A stretch of 64,000 nt of DNA, from positions 496,001 through 560,000 of the forward strand of contig JACQZP010000026.1 of the NCBI GenBank assembly GCA_016213825.1. Direction: 5' to 3'. Both the position numbers and the translations under genes were made by a program. Shown here piece by piece: positions 52,976 to 62,677 of this stretch. This stretch comes from Acetobacterium woodii. Its GTDB lineage: Bacteria; Bacillota; Clostridia; Eubacteriales; Eubacteriaceae. The notes under the pieces were generated by a model, which saw only the letters and a list, made by a program, of their open reading frames with translations, made no database searches and was not told the DNA's origin. Numbering within the stretch: the first letter of the stretch is position 1; each line of letters starts with the position of its first letter.

Positions 52976-53974
52976 TTAGCGAACCAGATATGGTGTTCGT
53001 GCTGGGGCGTTCCAATACCAAAGGTTTTCGGTATTCATTCTGGCAAAAAATAATTGAAAGCCTGCTTGCTCCTGGACGGTCAGAACCTCTTCAACCCAAT
53101 TTGCGACGATGATGATTCCTTTTTCGCTTAAATATTTGTGAACGCATCTGAAAATGATCAGCATCTCCATAATGGTCGTAGCGCCGGCACCATTGACAAT
53201 GACCATGATTTCTTCGCCCGATCGAAGATTTAAGTCATCAATAAGTAAATCCGACATGAGCATTGCGGTTTCATCAGCACTTTTCATTTTTTGACGGCCG
53301 CCACCGCCTTCACCATGCTGGCCCATTCCGATTTCCATTTCATCAGTACCGATCACTGCAAAAGCGGAACCATTTTGTGGATGGGTAGCTGTTTTGCAGG
53401 CAACGGCAATGGTCGCCATATTATCGGCAAAATCCTGGGCGATGGTGGTCACTTCATGGAGGGATTTTCCCTGGGCAGCTGCGGCACCAACAATTTTGTA
53501 TAGCGGCACACAGCCGACCAGACCACGTCGTCTTTCAGCTTCAGAACGAGGAGCGTAAGCAACATCTTCCCGGGTAATAATCATGCTTACATTGATACCG
53601 GATTTTTGGGCTTCTTCCATGGTTCGATTTCCAGCTAACATATCGCCAGCATGGTTTAAAACTACTAAAAGTACTCCTTTGCCTTTGTCGGCGAGTTGTA
53701 GCGCTTCAAAAACAGCTTTGTAACCAGGTGCAGCAAACACATCACCGACAACAGCAATATCAATCATACCTTCGCCGACAAAGCCTTCTAGGGCAGGTTC
53801 ATGGCCAGAACCACCCAGAGTTACAATCGTAACCCTGTCCGCAGTTTTAAGGCCTTTATTGATAACAAGGTTATTAGGTGTGACTTCAAGAATCGATGGA
53901 TTTGCTAATGCCAGGCCTTCTAATAATTCAGAGGTGATGTTTTCGGATTTATTAATAAATTTCTTTAGACTCAT
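52976..53974 (-). CDS. dhaK: Dihydroxyacetone kinase DhaK-type subunit, stand-alone
   Basis: This is a substrate-binding DAK1-type kinase subunit (332 aa, length of DhaK in Lactococcus). It has TLGGSGHEPALEGFVG, LNHAGDML (Asp) and GMGQHGEGG. The His in the last is the residue that covalently holds dihydroxyacetone in DhaK. No dhaL or dhaM lies beside it, so a phosphoryl donor partner must be elsewhere or the protein acts differently. The ribosome site is AAAGGAACC. It is monocistronic, divergent from an Agr-like regulator, with LytTR-type repeats in its upstream region. The actual substrate may be another ketose. Confidence 0.85.
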   Translation of the reverse strand: MSLKKFINKSENITSELLEGLALANPSILEVTPNNLVINKGLKTADRVTIVTLGGSGHEPALEGFVGEGMIDIAVVGDVFAAPGYKAVFEALQLADKGKGVLLVVLNHAGDMLAGNRTMEEAQKSGINVSMIITREDVAYAPRSEAERRRGLVGCVPLYKIVGAAAAQGKSLHEVTTIAQDFADNMATIAVACKTATHPQNGSAFAVIGTDEMEIGMGQHGEGGGGRQKMKSADETAMLMSDLLIDDLNLRSGEEIMVIVNGAGATTIMEMLIIFRCVHKYLSEKGIIIVANWVEEVLTVQEQAGFQLFFARMNTENLWYWNAPARTPYLVR

Positions 53975-54101
53975 TTGTCGGTTCCTTTATGTTTTAAAGT
54001 CTGTACAGCAGCGAATCACTGTTACTCGGTTATCGATAAAAGAATATTCATAATTAATAATACTGAATTAAATCGACTTACTAATACTAACAAAATACAT
54101 C

Positions 54102-54150
54102 AATGAAAACAATATTGACGTAATGAAAACAGTATTTAACGTAATGAAAA
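54102..54150. promoter_or_regulatory. 21-bp direct repeats, candidate LytTR operator
   Basis: AATGAAAACA(A/G)TATT repeats with a 20-21-bp period (54102, 54122, 54143). On the minus strand TACGTTAAA (54143-54135) and TACGTCAAT (54122-54114) start 21 bp apart, leaving a 12-bp spacer. This is the geometry of LytTR-domain binding sites. They lie between dhaK and the LytTR regulator gene. Confidence 0.6.
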
Positions 54151-54182
54151 GAAGAATTAGTCAGGATAATATACATCTAAAG

Positions 54183-54211
54183 TTGTAACAATTAATTTTA
54201 TGCGATATAAT
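54183..54211 (+). promoter_or_regulatory. Sigma-A promoter of the LytTR/GHKL pair
   Basis: TTGTAA (54183-54188) and TATAAT (54206-54211) are 17 bp apart, 48 nt before the regulator start. Confidence 0.82.
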
Positions 54212-54258
54212 AAGTCACTATAAAGGATTGATTATGTGTAAGAAAATAAGGTGAGAAC

Positions 54259-54972
54259 ATGTTAAGTATAGCAGTCTGCGAAGATGAGGAACATCACAAA
54301 AATTTATTGGTGGACTTAATTAGTCATTATCAATTTATAAACGGTTATCATTTGTCTGCATTTCAATTTGGACATGAATTAATAGCAGCAATGAAAAAAG
54401 AAAAAATGTTTGATGCTATTTTTCTTGATATGCGTTTAGAAAACGAAGATGGAATTGATATCGCAAATGAAATCAGAAAAACGGATGAAAGAACCCATAT
54501 CATTATCACAACGTCCTTAATTGAATATGCGGTACTGGGTTACTCAGTTAATGCCAGCGATTTTTTATTAAAGCCTATTTCACAAGAAAAATTATATCAA
54601 ATTTTAAAAAAATTAGAAGTGGATAAAATTAAATCTCAATCCAGTTATCACGAAATTGAAATAAATAAAGTAAAAATAGTTTTACGCACAGATGACATTT
54701 TATATTTTGAGAGTCTTGGCAGAAAAATTAAAATCGTGACGTTTGATGCAGAATATGAATATTATTACAATATTTCCGTATTGGAAAAGGAATTAGATGC
54801 AGCTCGTTTCATTTTGTGTCACCGTTCTTATATTGTAAATCTTGGGAATATCAAAAGTATCAAAAAAGGGAGTGTCATTTTAAAGACTGGATTGGTGATT
54901 CCAATTAGTCCCAAAAAGAATCAAAAAGTATATGATGAATTTACCAGGTATCTAACAGGAGATCTGCAATGA
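54259..54972 (+). CDS. LytTR-family response regulator, AgrA-like
   Basis: This is a response regulator of 237 aa. The receiver (1-125) has acidic CEDEEH, the phospho-acceptor Asp in FLDMRLENEDG, and Lys in LLKPIS. The LytTR DNA-binding domain (about 130-237) includes LYFESLGRKIKIV and FILCHRSYIVNLGNI. It is of the type that controls peptide-signal systems. It shares 4 nt with the downstream kinase gene (ATGA). No agrB/agrD-like signal genes are adjacent. Its own upstream region carries candidate LytTR sites. Confidence 0.9.
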   Translation: MLSIAVCEDEEHHKNLLVDLISHYQFINGYHLSAFQFGHELIAAMKKEKMFDAIFLDMRLENEDGIDIANEIRKTDERTHIIITTSLIEYAVLGYSVNASDFLLKPISQEKLYQILKKLEVDKIKSQSSYHEIEINKVKIVLRTDDILYFESLGRKIKIVTFDAEYEYYYNISVLEKELDAARFILCHRSYIVNLGNIKSIKKGSVILKTGLVIPISPKKNQKVYDEFTRYLTGDLQ

Positions 54973-56288
54973 ACAATTGGTATGATTATACAATTCTTGT
55001 GGCAATCTTATCAAATGTGTCGGCAATTATTATCTGTTATTATTTTCTGAGTAACATTCTATTCGCAAAAAAGCAAAGTAAAAAGGTGCGATATCTTATT
55101 TTGTTTGCAATAACATGCATTTTCATGAGTATCCTACTGTTTTTTAAGCAATCACCTGTTTTTGTTTTTGTATCAATGGGAACGTTTTTATCAATTGGTT
55201 TGTTGTTGTTTCAGGGAAACGTGCTGATGCGCATCCTCTATTCAATATTCTTTGTGGCGTTTGGAGGGCTAGCTGAAACCATTACTGGTATTATCGTAGC
55301 GCTGACATTTTCTTTTAGCCTTAATGAGCTATACCAATACCCAATATATTACACTCTTGTTGCCGTTGGTTCAAAGGTTGTTCTATTTGTATTCATCAAA
55401 TTTGCGATCCGCATTATTCGAAAACAAATTCAATTTTCATCACTGCTGGAATCAATTGCGCTTTTTAGTATTCCATTTGTCAGTTTAATTGTTTGTTTAA
55501 ATGTGTACTTTATGGTAGTAAAAGTCCAAGGAAGTGAATTAATTGGTATTATATCGGTCGGTGCGTTGCTATACATCAATATTATGATCTTTGCCATTTT
55601 AAAAGTACTGGATCATGAATCAAATAAAACATTAGAATACAAGAATGCCAATATTCAACTGGAACTTGAACAAAAACATTACAAAGAAATTCTGGAAAAA
55701 AATTATGAGGTAAGAGGATTGTGGCATGATATGAACAATCATGTTATTACCATGCAGTATTTGATTAAAAACCATGCATGTGACGAAATTAATGAATATC
55801 TGCGTCAACTTCATGATGTTTTGCAAAATGCCGTTGACCATAATCTGTCTGGAAATAATGTAGTAGATGCGCTGTTGAATTACAAAATTAAATTTGCATC
55901 TAACAAGAACATTAACATCGTTCATTACATCGCCATACCGGAAAAACTGAAAATGAATAGTATCGATCTATCAATAATATTGGGAAATATCTTAGACAAT
56001 GCAATTGAGGGATGCTTGAGAGATTCACGAGATGACGAAGATAAGATAATTAAATTTAACATGTATTACAAAAAAGAGAGCTTGTTAATTGATGTTGAAA
56101 ATACTGTTGATGAAAAAACAATTAAAAAGTCTGGGAATAAGTTAGTCAGCAGCAAAATAAGTAAGCATAACAAAAGTGGTTATGGCATATCAAATGTCAA
56201 GCAGGTATTGGATAATTACGGCGGCAATATGGTTACTCAAATTCTTGATGATCGATTTAAATGCACGATTCTTATTCCATTGGATTAA
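54969..56288 (+). CDS. GHKL sensor histidine kinase, AgrC-like
   Basis: This is a membrane histidine kinase of 439 aa. The N-terminal half has about six hydrophobic helices (1-215), as in peptide-sensing AgrC-type kinases. The cytoplasmic half has the phospho-acceptor His in LWHDMNNHV, the N-box in NILDNAIEGC and the glycine-rich box in GYGISNVKQVLDNYGG. It is the cognate partner of the LytTR regulator, coupled by an ATGA overlap. The signal is unknown; no pheromone precursor gene was seen nearby. Confidence 0.9.
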   Translation: MNNWYDYTILVAILSNVSAIIICYYFLSNILFAKKQSKKVRYLILFAITCIFMSILLFFKQSPVFVFVSMGTFLSIGLLLFQGNVLMRILYSIFFVAFGGLAETITGIIVALTFSFSLNELYQYPIYYTLVAVGSKVVLFVFIKFAIRIIRKQIQFSSLLESIALFSIPFVSLIVCLNVYFMVVKVQGSELIGIISVGALLYINIMIFAILKVLDHESNKTLEYKNANIQLELEQKHYKEILEKNYEVRGLWHDMNNHVITMQYLIKNHACDEINEYLRQLHDVLQNAVDHNLSGNNVVDALLNYKIKFASNKNINIVHYIAIPEKLKMNSIDLSIILGNILDNAIEGCLRDSRDDEDKIIKFNMYYKKESLLIDVENTVDEKTIKKSGNKLVSSKISKHNKSGYGISNVKQVLDNYGGNMVTQILDDRFKCTILIPLD

Positions 56289-56330
56289 AAAAGCCGATAA
56301 AGATTGATCAACACGATTAGATTATCAAAA

Positions 56331-56359
56331 TTGACAAAAGTCGACGGATGCGATAATAT
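56331..56359 (+). promoter_or_regulatory. Sigma-A promoter of the SorC-type regulator
   Basis: TTGACA (56331-56336) and TAATAT (56354-56359) are 17 bp apart, close to consensus. It lies inside the open frame upstream of the likely start, which supports the later start codon. Confidence 0.82.
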
Positions 56360-56396
56360 TATACAGGCATTCAAGGCTAATGATCGAGGTGATCCA

Positions 56397-57320
56397 TTGA
56401 AAGAAAAAGAATTGTATCGATTAGTACATGTTTCACAATTATACTATGAAGAGAATAAAACCCAATCTGAAATCGCGCAGGAACTCGAAATTTCACGTCC
56501 AGCAGTCAGCTACCTATTAAAAAAGGCAAGAGAAGCAGGGATTGTCAAAATCGACGTGCTCTCATATCATCGTACAATTAGGGGGATCCGGCATGAAATG
56601 TGTCAGCGATTTAACCTGAAAAGTTGTTACGTCGTCACGCTGCCAGACGATATTTATCAGGCCGGCGCAGATGTACTACTGGATTTTTTACCCAAAACGA
56701 AGATTTTGGGATTGGGCTGGGGTTATAATATCAGTAAGATTATTGAAGCGTTTCCCCAACAAAGTAAAACAGGAATAAATAGTGGCACAATCTGTCCGCT
56801 AATTGGCGCAACTACAGCACCGCAACGGGGTTATCATCCCGATGATCTGGTCAACGAGCTTGCCATCAAAACCGGTTATCAAGCAGAACTGCTGAATAGT
56901 CTGGCATTTCCCACAACTGTTGCTGAGCAGGCACAGGTTATGGAGGCTGATAATTTCAAACAGATTTCTGACTATTGGAAGCGAACGACAACCGCATTAG
57001 TGACCCTGGGTAGTTTCCCATCAGTTCCTGATCATGGCTCAGCATTGCGGTTTGGTAGAAAATTGATTGAACAGCAAGCTGTTGGCTGCTTACTTTCATA
57101 TTTTTTTAATCCCCAAGGTGAACTGATTAAAGGGGAAGAAGATTATACCATTCAAATTCCTTTGAATTTTTTAAGTCATGTTAGAAATGTTATTGGTTTT
57201 GTACCCCAGGAGGCTAATGTACCAGCGATTCTCAGTGGATTGGAGACTGGCTTGATTGATCATTTGGTGATCACCGAATCTTTGGCCAGTGAAATTATTA
57301 AGACCGAACGAATTAAATAA
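56397..57320 (+). CDS. SorC-family sugar-binding transcriptional regulator
   Basis: This is a repressor/activator of about 307 aa. It has an N-terminal HTH (LYYEENKTQSEIAQELEISRPAVSYLLKKAREAG) and a C-terminal sugar-binding domain with ILGLGWGYN and NELAIKTGYQAELLNSLAF. SorC/DeoR-like regulators sense phosphorylated sugars. The TTG at 56397 is chosen: GAGGTG is 5 nt upstream, and a consensus promoter lies between it and the other in-frame start at 56304. It probably controls sugar or polyol genes, and dhaK nearby is a candidate target. The downstream terminator isolates it. Confidence 0.88.
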   Translation: MKEKELYRLVHVSQLYYEENKTQSEIAQELEISRPAVSYLLKKAREAGIVKIDVLSYHRTIRGIRHEMCQRFNLKSCYVVTLPDDIYQAGADVLLDFLPKTKILGLGWGYNISKIIEAFPQQSKTGINSGTICPLIGATTAPQRGYHPDDLVNELAIKTGYQAELLNSLAFPTTVAEQAQVMEADNFKQISDYWKRTTTALVTLGSFPSVPDHGSALRFGRKLIEQQAVGCLLSYFFNPQGELIKGEEDYTIQIPLNFLSHVRNVIGFVPQEANVPAILSGLETGLIDHLVITESLASEIIKTERIK

Positions 57321-60235: not shown

Positions 60236-60886
60236 ATGAAGTATTCACATATATTATTTGACTTGGATGGAACACTGATTGACTCAAAGGATAGCATTCG
60301 TTGTTCATTTGAATACGCATTAAAAAAGATGAATGTACTGAATCCGGAGATTTCAGATATTAATTCTTTAATCGGTCCTCCGATGCTCACAACTTTTCAG
60401 GAGGTTTATGGCTTTTCGCTAACTGAAGCAAGAAGAGGTTATGAATTTTATCTGGAAGAATATGTTCTCAATGGACAGATGTATCAAGCGCAGCTGTATA
60501 AAGACGTTAAGGAAACGGTAGATACTCTTTACCAGAGCGGATGTTTTTTGGGAGTGGCCACAACAAAAAATGAAACAAATGCCCGAAAAATCGTTGGGAA
60601 TCTGAAGCTGAACATTGAAATTGCAAGGGTTTATGGAACCTATAATGATGGCACCCGCAGCAATAAAAAAGAAATTATTACCAACCTACTAGAAGACAAT
60701 GATGTGATGGATTTAGCCGATGTATTAATGGTTGGTGACCGCCATTATGATATCATCGGCGCCAAAGAAGTGGGCATCGATTCGGTGGGAGTCACCTATG
60801 GCTGTGGCAGCGAGGATGAACTGCGACAAGCCGGAGCCACCCATCTAATTGCCAGTTTTAGCGAATTATTGGAGATTATCAAATAG
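60236..60886 (+). CDS. HAD-family phosphatase (Gph/PpaX-like)
   Basis: This is a haloacid-dehalogenase-fold hydrolase of 216 aa. Motif I is FDLDGTLIDS with nucleophile Asp, motif II is ATTKNE, a Lys lies in SNKKEI, and motif IV is MVGDRHYDIIGA. A cap of about 70 residues lies after motif I. The length and motifs resemble phosphoglycolate phosphatase and PpaX pyrophosphatase. GGAGATAG precedes the ATG. The P-loop kinase-like gene starts 9 nt downstream with its ribosome site across the HAD stop codon, so the pair is co-translated. The substrate is unknown. Confidence 0.88.
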   Translation: MKYSHILFDLDGTLIDSKDSIRCSFEYALKKMNVLNPEISDINSLIGPPMLTTFQEVYGFSLTEARRGYEFYLEEYVLNGQMYQAQLYKDVKETVDTLYQSGCFLGVATTKNETNARKIVGNLKLNIEIARVYGTYNDGTRSNKKEIITNLLEDNDVMDLADVLMVGDRHYDIIGAKEVGIDSVGVTYGCGSEDELRQAGATHLIASFSELLEIIK

Positions 60887-60895
60887 GAGGAAACA

Positions 60896-62677
60896 ATGGA
60901 ATCAAAAAACATTAATTTGGAACGGACAGCATTAATTAAAGGTGATTTGAAATTCACAAATTTTGGTCAGATTATTAAGTCCAACCTGTTCAAAAAGTTG
61001 ATTAAAACTTTTATTGACGAACTCACCGTAAAAAAATCCTATCTGTTAAAAACCTTGGAACCTTTTGAAAATCAAAAGAGCGAATTCAATGAAAGTGCCT
61101 TTGTCGATTTTGTTTATTTGCTTAATATTAATTCATTGGATGAGATCATCCGCTCGGGGTATTTTGATATTCAATTTACCTATGAAGAGTATTCACAACT
61201 CTTTCTGGGTTTTCTGGAAGGCTTCTACAACTACTGGCGAAGTATTCAGCGATTTATGATTAAAACTGATGAATATAGTCCTGATGAGAACACCAAGCGT
61301 TCGAAGGCTTACTCGCTAGCCTCAAACAATGATGCCTTTAAAAAAATGGTTTTGGATCTCTATCGTAATATCCATTTTAATGTTACGGGAAAAAGTGTCA
61401 GTATTTATCGTCAGCTCCCCAGTGGTGCCCAGGTGGCATTTTTAACCGATAAATTTGAATTTGATCGTGGGGTTAAAAGTAAGAATGATTCACTTTACAA
61501 TGTTCCCTATGTCTGGGAGGCGATCTTTGAACCGCCGGTCATTTTCTATACCCAGTCCAGCAAACGGGATGGTATCTTTCCGGTAAAGGACAAACGGATT
61601 TTACAAAAATTTTATCTCGACTGTGATGAATGGTTTGCGATTCCTATGAAAGTAGGCCGTTTACTTGCCATCGTTTATGTTCAAAAAGAATATCTGGCTC
61701 TTGGGGCAGGCTTATTCAATCTTTTTGAAATGGCAACGCCTGAAGAATTCACCAAAGAAAAACCAGCTGCAGTTGTTTTCTTTGGCTTGGATGAGGTCCT
61801 TTTTGAAGAAGATGAAAAATTGGGATTTGTAACCAAAGAAGATGATGTATACTATGGTCTGATTCCCGACCTGCCACAGATTGACTACTTTGGTTATATG
61901 AAAAAAATGATGCTAACCCTTCATAATATTATTCAGATTGAAATGAAAGCCATGCCAGTTCATGGTGCCTTTGCGAAAATCCGAGTTGGTGGGAAAAAAT
62001 CTGCTAATGTTATGTTGATCGGTGATAGTGGTGCCGGAAAATCTGAAACCCTCGAAGCCATCAATAAGCTACCAAAAGAATTGGCTTGCGATTTTGACAT
62101 TCTCATTGACGACATGGGCTCGCTCCATTTTAATAAAGAAGGCGAATTGATGGCAGTGGGAACTGAAATCGGCGCTTTTGTCCGACTGGATGATCTCCAG
62201 CCGGGATACGCCTACAGCACTATGGATCGAAGTATTTTTATGAATCCGAATATTGTCAATGCCCGGGTTATTGTTCCGCAAATGTCTTACGAAGAAATCT
62301 CAAAATCGACGCGAGTGGATTTTGTTTTCTATATTAATAACTATGAAGAAATTAGCGAAGCGGCACCACCGATTGAGTTGTTTGATGATTTAGATGAAGC
62401 CTATGCAGTTTTCTGCGAAGGAAAACGAATGGCGAAGGGTACCACCGGTGAAGTAGGGATTACCACGACCTATTTCGCTAATCCCTTTGGCGCCGTGCAA
62501 TTAAAAGAAGAACATGAAAAAATCGCCAAGAAAACTTTCAAGAAAATGAAGGAAACCGGCGTTCAAATTGGGATGATCCGAACCCAGCTGGGGATCCCCG
62601 GGTATGAACAGGATGGTCCATTCCTGGCGGCACAGGCGCTCATACAGTTTATTGATGAACTTAACAAGTTAGATTGA
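60896..62677 (+). CDS. HPr kinase / PEP carboxykinase-like P-loop protein
   Basis: This is a 593-aa protein with no firmly known function. Residues 376-385 read GDSGAGKSET, the Walker A of HPr kinase/PEPCK-fold proteins (GxSGxGKSE). DD at 405-406 (ILIDDMG) takes the place of the following acidic pair. The first 350 residues are helical and unlike any domain I recognise. It is not a normal ATP-PEPCK (about 530 aa, with GLSGTGKTT). The late MIRTQLGIPGYEQDG segment may help identify the family. The upstream HAD phosphatase echoes the hprK-ppaX pairing. Kinase activity on a protein or metabolite is inferred. Confidence 0.75.
   Translation: MESKNINLERTALIKGDLKFTNFGQIIKSNLFKKLIKTFIDELTVKKSYLLKTLEPFENQKSEFNESAFVDFVYLLNINSLDEIIRSGYFDIQFTYEEYSQLFLGFLEGFYNYWRSIQRFMIKTDEYSPDENTKRSKAYSLASNNDAFKKMVLDLYRNIHFNVTGKSVSIYRQLPSGAQVAFLTDKFEFDRGVKSKNDSLYNVPYVWEAIFEPPVIFYTQSSKRDGIFPVKDKRILQKFYLDCDEWFAIPMKVGRLLAIVYVQKEYLALGAGLFNLFEMATPEEFTKEKPAAVVFFGLDEVLFEEDEKLGFVTKEDDVYYGLIPDLPQIDYFGYMKKMMLTLHNIIQIEMKAMPVHGAFAKIRVGGKKSANVMLIGDSGAGKSETLEAINKLPKELACDFDILIDDMGSLHFNKEGELMAVGTEIGAFVRLDDLQPGYAYSTMDRSIFMNPNIVNARVIVPQMSYEEISKSTRVDFVFYINNYEEISEAAPPIELFDDLDEAYAVFCEGKRMAKGTTGEVGITTTYFANPFGAVQLKEEHEKIAKKTFKKMKETGVQIGMIRTQLGIPGYEQDGPFLAAQALIQFIDELNKLD

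Follow-up and report, generated by a model that had tools for sequence, protein, structure and literature searches.

Phosphoenolpyruvate carboxykinase (PEPCK) stands where glycolysis and carbon fixation meet. In Bacilli, the gene of the HPr kinase HprK lies beside the gene of PpaX. The ATP-dependent (PckA, PF01293; 2pc9, 1j3b, 1ayl) and GTP-dependent (PF00821) PEPCKs work with Mn2+ at the active site according to a review of their mechanism (PMC8100219), and another paper places HPr kinase (PF07475, TIGR00679) and PEPCK in one kinase family (PMC1079889). Membership of both in one family explains why the protein described here gave a first impression of an HPr kinase; its placement in the P-loop group that holds both enzymes was borne out, and its closer relationship appears to be with PEPCK.

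The KIN locus

The window analyzed here is a stretch of 64,000 nucleotides of Acetobacterium woodii (assembly GCA_016213825.1, contig JACQZP010000026.1, positions 496,001 to 560,000 of the forward strand). We use the name KIN for the 593-aa product of 60896-62677. The genes and domains considered are as follows.

60236-60886, plus strand: HAD gene, 216 aa, stop codon at 60884-60886 (ORF reading)
60896-62677, plus strand: KIN gene, 593 aa, ATG at 60896; PEPCK-fold protein as judged from sequence and model
60896-61441, plus strand: KIN residues 1-182, added N-terminal domain, mostly helical in the model (pLDDT 86.9)
61442-62674, plus strand: KIN residues 183-593, predicted to hold both PEPCK-fold domains (VIA Z 18.2 to 2pc9_C)

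ORF reading agrees with the initial annotation, which had described a 216-aa HAD gene 9 nt upstream of a 593-aa chain; the gap runs from the HAD stop codon to the KIN ATG on the same strand, and an AGGAGG run resembling a ribosome-binding site precedes the ATG. The GDSGAGKSET motif (residues 376-385) and the following DD pair (residues 405-406) are likewise present as described. LemA and DUF2207 genes lie upstream of the pair on the opposite strand, and a rubrerythrin gene lies downstream of KIN. Elsewhere in the window, the stretch 52976-57320 contains a Dak1-domain gene on the minus strand and, beside it, genes for a LytTR response regulator, for a GHKL kinase and for a regulator with a sugar-binding domain.

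The KIN frame is not a chance ORF, since 26 of the 40 family genomes contain a match to the protein. One of these genomes, 81% complete, carries a copy 99% identical to that of the window with one in-frame TAG (L003 in G009), which is either an error or a recent pseudogene. The closest relatives in the species collection, among the best 80 of at least 463, include Acetobacterium and Firmicutes MAGs with 93-94% identity. GDSGAGKSE and the DD pair are present in all 67 rows of the KIN alignment, 66 of which were collected with motif patterns, and invariance of the P-loop in this set is therefore partly due to selection.

Predicted fold and domain layout

The KIN model, built from the 67-row alignment, has a mean pLDDT of 92.2 and a pTM of 0.90. 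The best 50 of 115 Foldseek matches (E <= 0.001) were all PEPCKs, with a best E of 1e-16, and ATP- and GTP-dependent PEPCKs together filled the best 50 rows of both the Foldseek and the VIA searches. VIA-align gave Z 18.2 and an rmsd of 3.3 A over 349 residues with Thermus PEPCK (2pc9_C), and Z of about 16 with GTP-PEPCKs. Both PEPCK domains are predicted in KIN because the fold searches match PEPCK over model range 196-593, and residues 183-593 are predicted to represent the whole two-domain fold. The initial annotation had reported an unfamiliar N-terminus of about 350 residues; its length is really about 182, as residues 183-350 fall within the PEPCK fold. Structure comparison, which it had suggested for the P-loop domain against HprK and PEPCK, thus gave PEPCKs in all of the best 50 rows.

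For the added N-terminal domain (residues 1-182), modeled alone, Foldseek found nothing at E <= 0.001, and the best VIA Z was 5.5, which is within the range that the tool calls common. Globin-like arrangements were among these matches; at Z 5.5 or less, they were not accepted as a sign of kinship. Four positions of the domain, W114, R119, R172 and Q173, are invariant in the 67-row alignment.

KIN resembles ATP-PEPCK in the two-domain fold over residues 183-593, in the YxGxxKK...H spacing, in the P-loop and probably in the DD pair. It differs in its low identity (14-17% in structure alignments, with a score below the family cut-off), in the extra 182-residue domain and in a P-loop ending K-S-E rather than K-T-T. 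The alignments also stop at chain residues 450-472, leaving the last part of PEPCK unmatched by KIN. GTP-PEPCK has the same fold, yet PF00821 was absent among the matches of KIN and of the seven relatives scanned.

Sequence evidence for PEPCK kinship

In a Pfam scan of KIN the sole family near its cut-off was PEPCK_ATP (PF01293), at 22.4 versus 26.5 bits and aligned at residues 330-416 only, and the NCBIfam PEPCK model gave 15.5 bits versus a cut-off of 815. KIN is thus below both cut-offs and, in keeping with the initial annotation, cannot be called a simple ortholog of a characterized PEPCK. Seven further relatives were scanned against PF01293: one narrowly passes (26.6 bits), four are below the cut-off and two have no PEPCK match at E <= 0.1. 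One more relative reaches 27 bits in a genome search.

Profile comparisons used the window's protein plus 66 of 80 loci (A3), 15 of 30 PEPCK loci (A4) and 17 of 21 HprK loci. The A3 core profile (residues 183-593) gave about equal values with PEPCK (93%), HprK (90%) and unrelated ABC ATPases (92.5%), and these values therefore mostly reflect the P-loop. For this reason, the case for kinship with PEPCK is built on a P-loop-free test and on the fold instead of on hhalign values that include the P-loop. The idea that KIN is a “missing link” between HprK and PEPCK (90% for KIN with HprK, 18% for PEPCK with HprK) was abandoned once ABC ATPases were seen to give equally high values with KIN.

In the P-loop-free test, KIN residues 183-368 aligned with canonical PEPCK over 111 columns (E 5.6e-4) and with a second PEPCK-like group (E 3.4e-5), with no match to HprK (E 0.13) or ABC ATPases (E 0.59); ten control runs with column-permuted PEPCK gave E values of 0.11-0.69. 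For residues 393-593 there was a weak match to the second group (E 1e-3), and their profile alignment to canonical PEPCK failed (E 0.43). A PDB sequence search with KIN alone gave a best E of 0.81, and in a search with profile A2 a PEPCK appeared only at 0.54, behind designed repeat proteins whose value of 0.0073 was attributed to chance. No KIN match at E <= 0.001 was found in phage-protein and defense libraries, and no phage record matched.

The second PEPCK-like group (A5) has the profile closest to that of KIN (E 2.8e-10 with the P-loop included) and similar motifs (YFGEHKKG, CHGG and HDD). It comprises 17 loci (L163-L179) of about 555 aa, for example L163:3710-5374, in 17 of 391 class genomes, none of them among the 22 class genomes that carry KIN. 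Unlike KIN, this group keeps a PEPCK-like TGR and passes the PF01293 cut-off (45-82 bits; 82.1 for L163), and nothing in it matches the N-terminal domain of KIN.

A relative 34.8% identical to KIN is encoded on a 252-kb plasmid of Limosilactobacillus fermentum (CP033373.1, L180:7776-9485) and annotated as phosphoenolpyruvate carboxykinase. This relative and two others (L026, L062) have weak DUF4914 matches of 12.6-13.8 bits, below the cut-off; DUF4914 is possibly another PEPCK-like family.

Active-site residues and proposed function

Residues of KIN with counterparts or probable counterparts in PEPCK are listed here by position.

61886-61906, plus strand: Y331-F-G-Y-M-K336-K337, counterpart of PEPCK Y207...K212-K213 (P-loop-free hhalign)
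61961-61963, plus strand: H356, counterpart of PEPCK H232, 19 residues past the second Lys
62021-62050, plus strand: P-loop GDSGAGKSET, residues 376-385, read in the sequence
62108-62113, plus strand: D405-D406, probable Walker-B/metal aspartates (PEPCK D268-D269; low-confidence full-length alignment only)
62264-62266, plus strand: R457 in N-A-R, probably equivalent to PEPCK R333 (low-confidence full-length alignment only)

The PEPCK residues compared here, which include its Mn2+ ligands and the substrate arginine, are Tyr207, Lys212/213, His232, Asp268/269, Arg333 and Arg65. YFGYMKK of KIN sits on the YxGExKK of PEPCK in the P-loop-free alignment, and the step of 19 residues from K337 to H356 matches that of a canonical PEPCK (K197 and H216 of L133). 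By alignment, the Tyr/Lys/Lys/His set of PEPCK is fully kept in KIN. Y331, K336, K337, H356, D405, D406 and R457 are identical in all 67 aligned rows, as is R224; D406 and R457 are placed by the low-confidence alignment only because the profile alignment past the P-loop to canonical PEPCK fails. The TGRSP motif with the substrate Arg65 of PEPCK is absent from KIN, and R224 of an invariant NKRxG is a candidate counterpart, a guess from order and conservation. For Arg449 and Thr455, the adenine-site residues of PEPCK, no counterpart was found in the KIN profile alignments, in which this region aligns poorly. PDB titles among the fold matches name the PEPCK mutants Lys213Ser, Asp269Asn and Arg65Gln.

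Because of this anatomy we lean toward PEPCK-like chemistry on a small carboxylate: KIN would be a phosphotransferase with a divergent PEPCK fold and an added helical domain, and its substrate would be oxaloacetate/PEP or a similar small carboxylate. The P-loop in the C-terminal lobe would bind the nucleotide, and a second metal would be held by K337, H356 and probably D406. Oxaloacetate, PEP or a close analogue would bind in the cleft and exchange phosphate with the nucleotide as in PEPCK, and the N-terminal helical domain may regulate the enzyme or fix its oligomeric state. In two genera, the HAD gene probably belongs to the same operon, and its product would be an accessory phosphatase rather than a necessary part.

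The strongest competitor, in our judgment a rather unlikely one, keeps the PEPCK fold but gives KIN another role: it would phosphorylate a small molecule that has nothing to do with oxaloacetate, or it would be a regulatory ATPase that senses nucleotides, the helical domain serving as output or sensor. In favor of this are the four invariant residues of the added domain named above and the segment after the P-loop, which no longer aligns to canonical PEPCK. The lack of a widely conserved neighbor in 68 loci, unlike a fixed pathway enzyme, also points in this direction. However, the complete retention of the PEPCK residue set for Mn2+ and substrate argues against it.

KIN and HPr kinase

The P-loop of KIN fits the HprK-type pattern GxSGxGKSE, and a His-Gly before it and the DD pair after it are also shared with HprK. 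Together with the HAD gene 9 nt upstream, whose nearest model is PpaX, and with the presence of HPr in the window's own genome, this resemblance is consistent with an HprK-like protein kinase/phosphorylase acting on HPr or another protein, with the HAD protein clearing PPi or a phospho-product as PpaX does. We consider this improbable. A true HprK (238.5 bits) is encoded on another contig of the same genome, KIN reaches only 11.5 bits on the HprK model TIGR00679 (cut-off 240), and PF07475 is not among its Pfam matches at E <= 1. The likeness is confined to the P-loop segment: with it, the HprK profile (E 1.5e-6) does no better than ABC ATPases (4.8e-7), and without it the match is gone. The HAD gene, moreover, was found beside KIN in two genera only.

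A search of 39 hand-picked KIN genomes found no HPr in 15 (one of the 15, G388, is 99% complete; completeness of the others is not given), and HPr is therefore unlikely to be a conserved KIN substrate. Two of these 39 genomes, G134 and G443, probably represent a single genome, as their match coordinates coincide. The PF07475 genome search missed its control, B. subtilis, a species that has hprK, and absences in that search were not relied on. On family models, the genome's own hprK, P-loop-free profiles and the patchy distribution of HPr, the “HPr-kinase-like” label was rejected.

The HAD gene and its pairing with KIN

DLDGT and GDRHYD motifs were read in the HAD sequence, which scores 102.9 bits on Pfam HAD_2 (cut-off 23.8) and 29.7 bits on NCBIfam HAD-IA (cut-off 23.3). 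Its best equivalogs are PpaX (NF009804; 95 versus 218 bits) and phosphoglycolate phosphatase (85.5 versus 225 bits), both below cut-off. These scores suggest a HAD-IA phosphatase for which the PpaX/phosphoglycolate-phosphatase models are the nearest. It resembles these phosphatases in family and length but, unlike PpaX, it is not beside hprK in the window's genome, where the true hprK is flanked by uvrC-like and PHP-like genes (named by reading the proteins) and has no HAD neighbor in the 10.5 kb read.

Homologs of the HAD gene (E <= 1e-30) were identified in 29 of the 40 family genomes. Wherever a genome has both genes, they are adjacent and co-directional (24 of 24; 19 in the window's genus and five in a second), and these 24 are also the only ones among the 26 KIN-bearing genomes with the HAD gene beside KIN, all in two genera of Eubacteriaceae. 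KIN occurs without the HAD gene in G029 and G039. In G039, KIN is immediately preceded by LemA-like and DUF2207-like genes, named by likeness to those of the window, and no HAD gene intervenes; the LemA/DUF2207/KIN order therefore exists without it. Conversely, five genomes without KIN (G027, G028, G030, G036 and G037) have a HAD homolog, the orthology of which is unsure because identity is merely 38-44%.

An earlier motif screen had missed one true HAD gene (L055), and the question was repeated by BLAST (E <= 1e-3) against the ORFs of 96 KIN loci (L033-L048 and L053-L132). Matches to the HAD gene were confined to the five Acetobacterium-type loci (L053-L057), always beside KIN; it was not found at L058, the sixth family locus, nor in any of the 90 loci outside the family, nine of which have fewer than 700 bases upstream of KIN and are a weak test, and in two the KIN frame was not located. 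In the data examined, the pairing is lineage-specific. The conservation that the initial annotation had asked about thus holds within the window's genus and a second genus of Eubacteriaceae and does not extend to the 90 loci examined outside the family. Its proposal of a distinct, conserved kinase/phosphatase switch is not supported, given the restriction to two genera, the occurrence of each gene without the other and an hprK that lacks a HAD neighbor. That the two proteins form one obligatory system in Acetobacterium and relatives is very improbable despite their constant adjacency and orientation where both occur, as the two genes are separated by anything from fewer than 10 to about 200 nt depending on the start chosen, conservation is lower for the HAD protein (for example, 52% versus 78% for KIN in G013) and either gene is found alone.

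Distribution and phylogeny

KIN was detected in 22 of 391 class genomes at 378 bits or more; three extra matches of 17-18 bits were taken as P-loop noise. In the species collection, at least 463 relatives were found among the 595 stretches listed. The best 80 of them, which were kept, span at least nine phyla by database record, including Acetobacterium relatives, Thermotogota, Nitrospirota and others; many are MAGs, in which single contigs can be misplaced. As judged from sequence, KIN belongs to a large and deep branch of the PEPCK family and itself scores below the PEPCK cut-offs.

In a 76-row tree (quick method, midpoint root), the KIN genes of Eubacteriaceae group with 11 Thermotogota genes (18 rows, 100% SH-aLRT), apart from the Clostridium type. 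The window's KIN is 41-49% identical to the Thermotogota rows and about 36-39% identical to the Clostridium rows (L059-L071 comparison). This grouping suggests an old, possibly horizontal, transfer.

No neighbor spans the KIN family among the 68 loci compared, which remained after 12 of 80 were dropped by a motif rule. Recurring neighbors are scattered ABC-transporter parts, genes of the Acetobacterium-type loci and small sets, each of four loci; in one of these sets, from Bacillota, a PP-loop-type gene lies at -1 of KIN. In two Nitrospirota loci (L076:4125-9555 and L094:731-6182), KIN lies within 15 nt between genes that look by eye like an aspartyl-tRNA synthetase and a ferredoxin-like-domain protein.

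Relation to canonical PEPCK and pyruvate phosphate dikinase

Neither ATP- nor GTP-PEPCK was found in the window's genome at E <= 0.001. Canonical PEPCK is present in four of the 22 KIN genomes versus 80 of the 391 class genomes overall, a count hand-sorted by E-value (of 113 matches, 17 intermediate and 16 weak ones were set aside). The idea that KIN stands in for a missing PEPCK was rejected on these similar frequencies; the two enzymes neither exclude each other nor tend to occur together. PEP can probably be made without KIN in the window's genome because pyruvate phosphate dikinase is present. PPDK_N was found in all 39 hand-picked KIN genomes and the TIGR01828 control in 330 of the 391 class genomes, including 22 of 22 with KIN. 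A link between KIN and this enzyme was not used: the chance is about 0.02 (0.844 to the power of 22, kinship ignored).

Implications

No description of the KIN branch was found in the literature searched, as judged mainly on titles and abstract openings, and the sole annotated record noted calls a KIN relative simply phosphoenolpyruvate carboxykinase. The lineage is set apart from PEPCK by the way its P-loop ends, by changes at the nucleotide end and by its additional domain. We tentatively suggest that KIN may belong to an unrecognized major branch of the PEPCK superfamily, found in many phyla and catalyzing an unassigned phosphotransfer, as a metabolite carboxykinase or a metabolite-gated switch, with the new helical domain in control. 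The lineage is either a hidden class of PEPCK or a related enzyme with another substrate, and either answer would change the metabolic models of the organisms that carry it.
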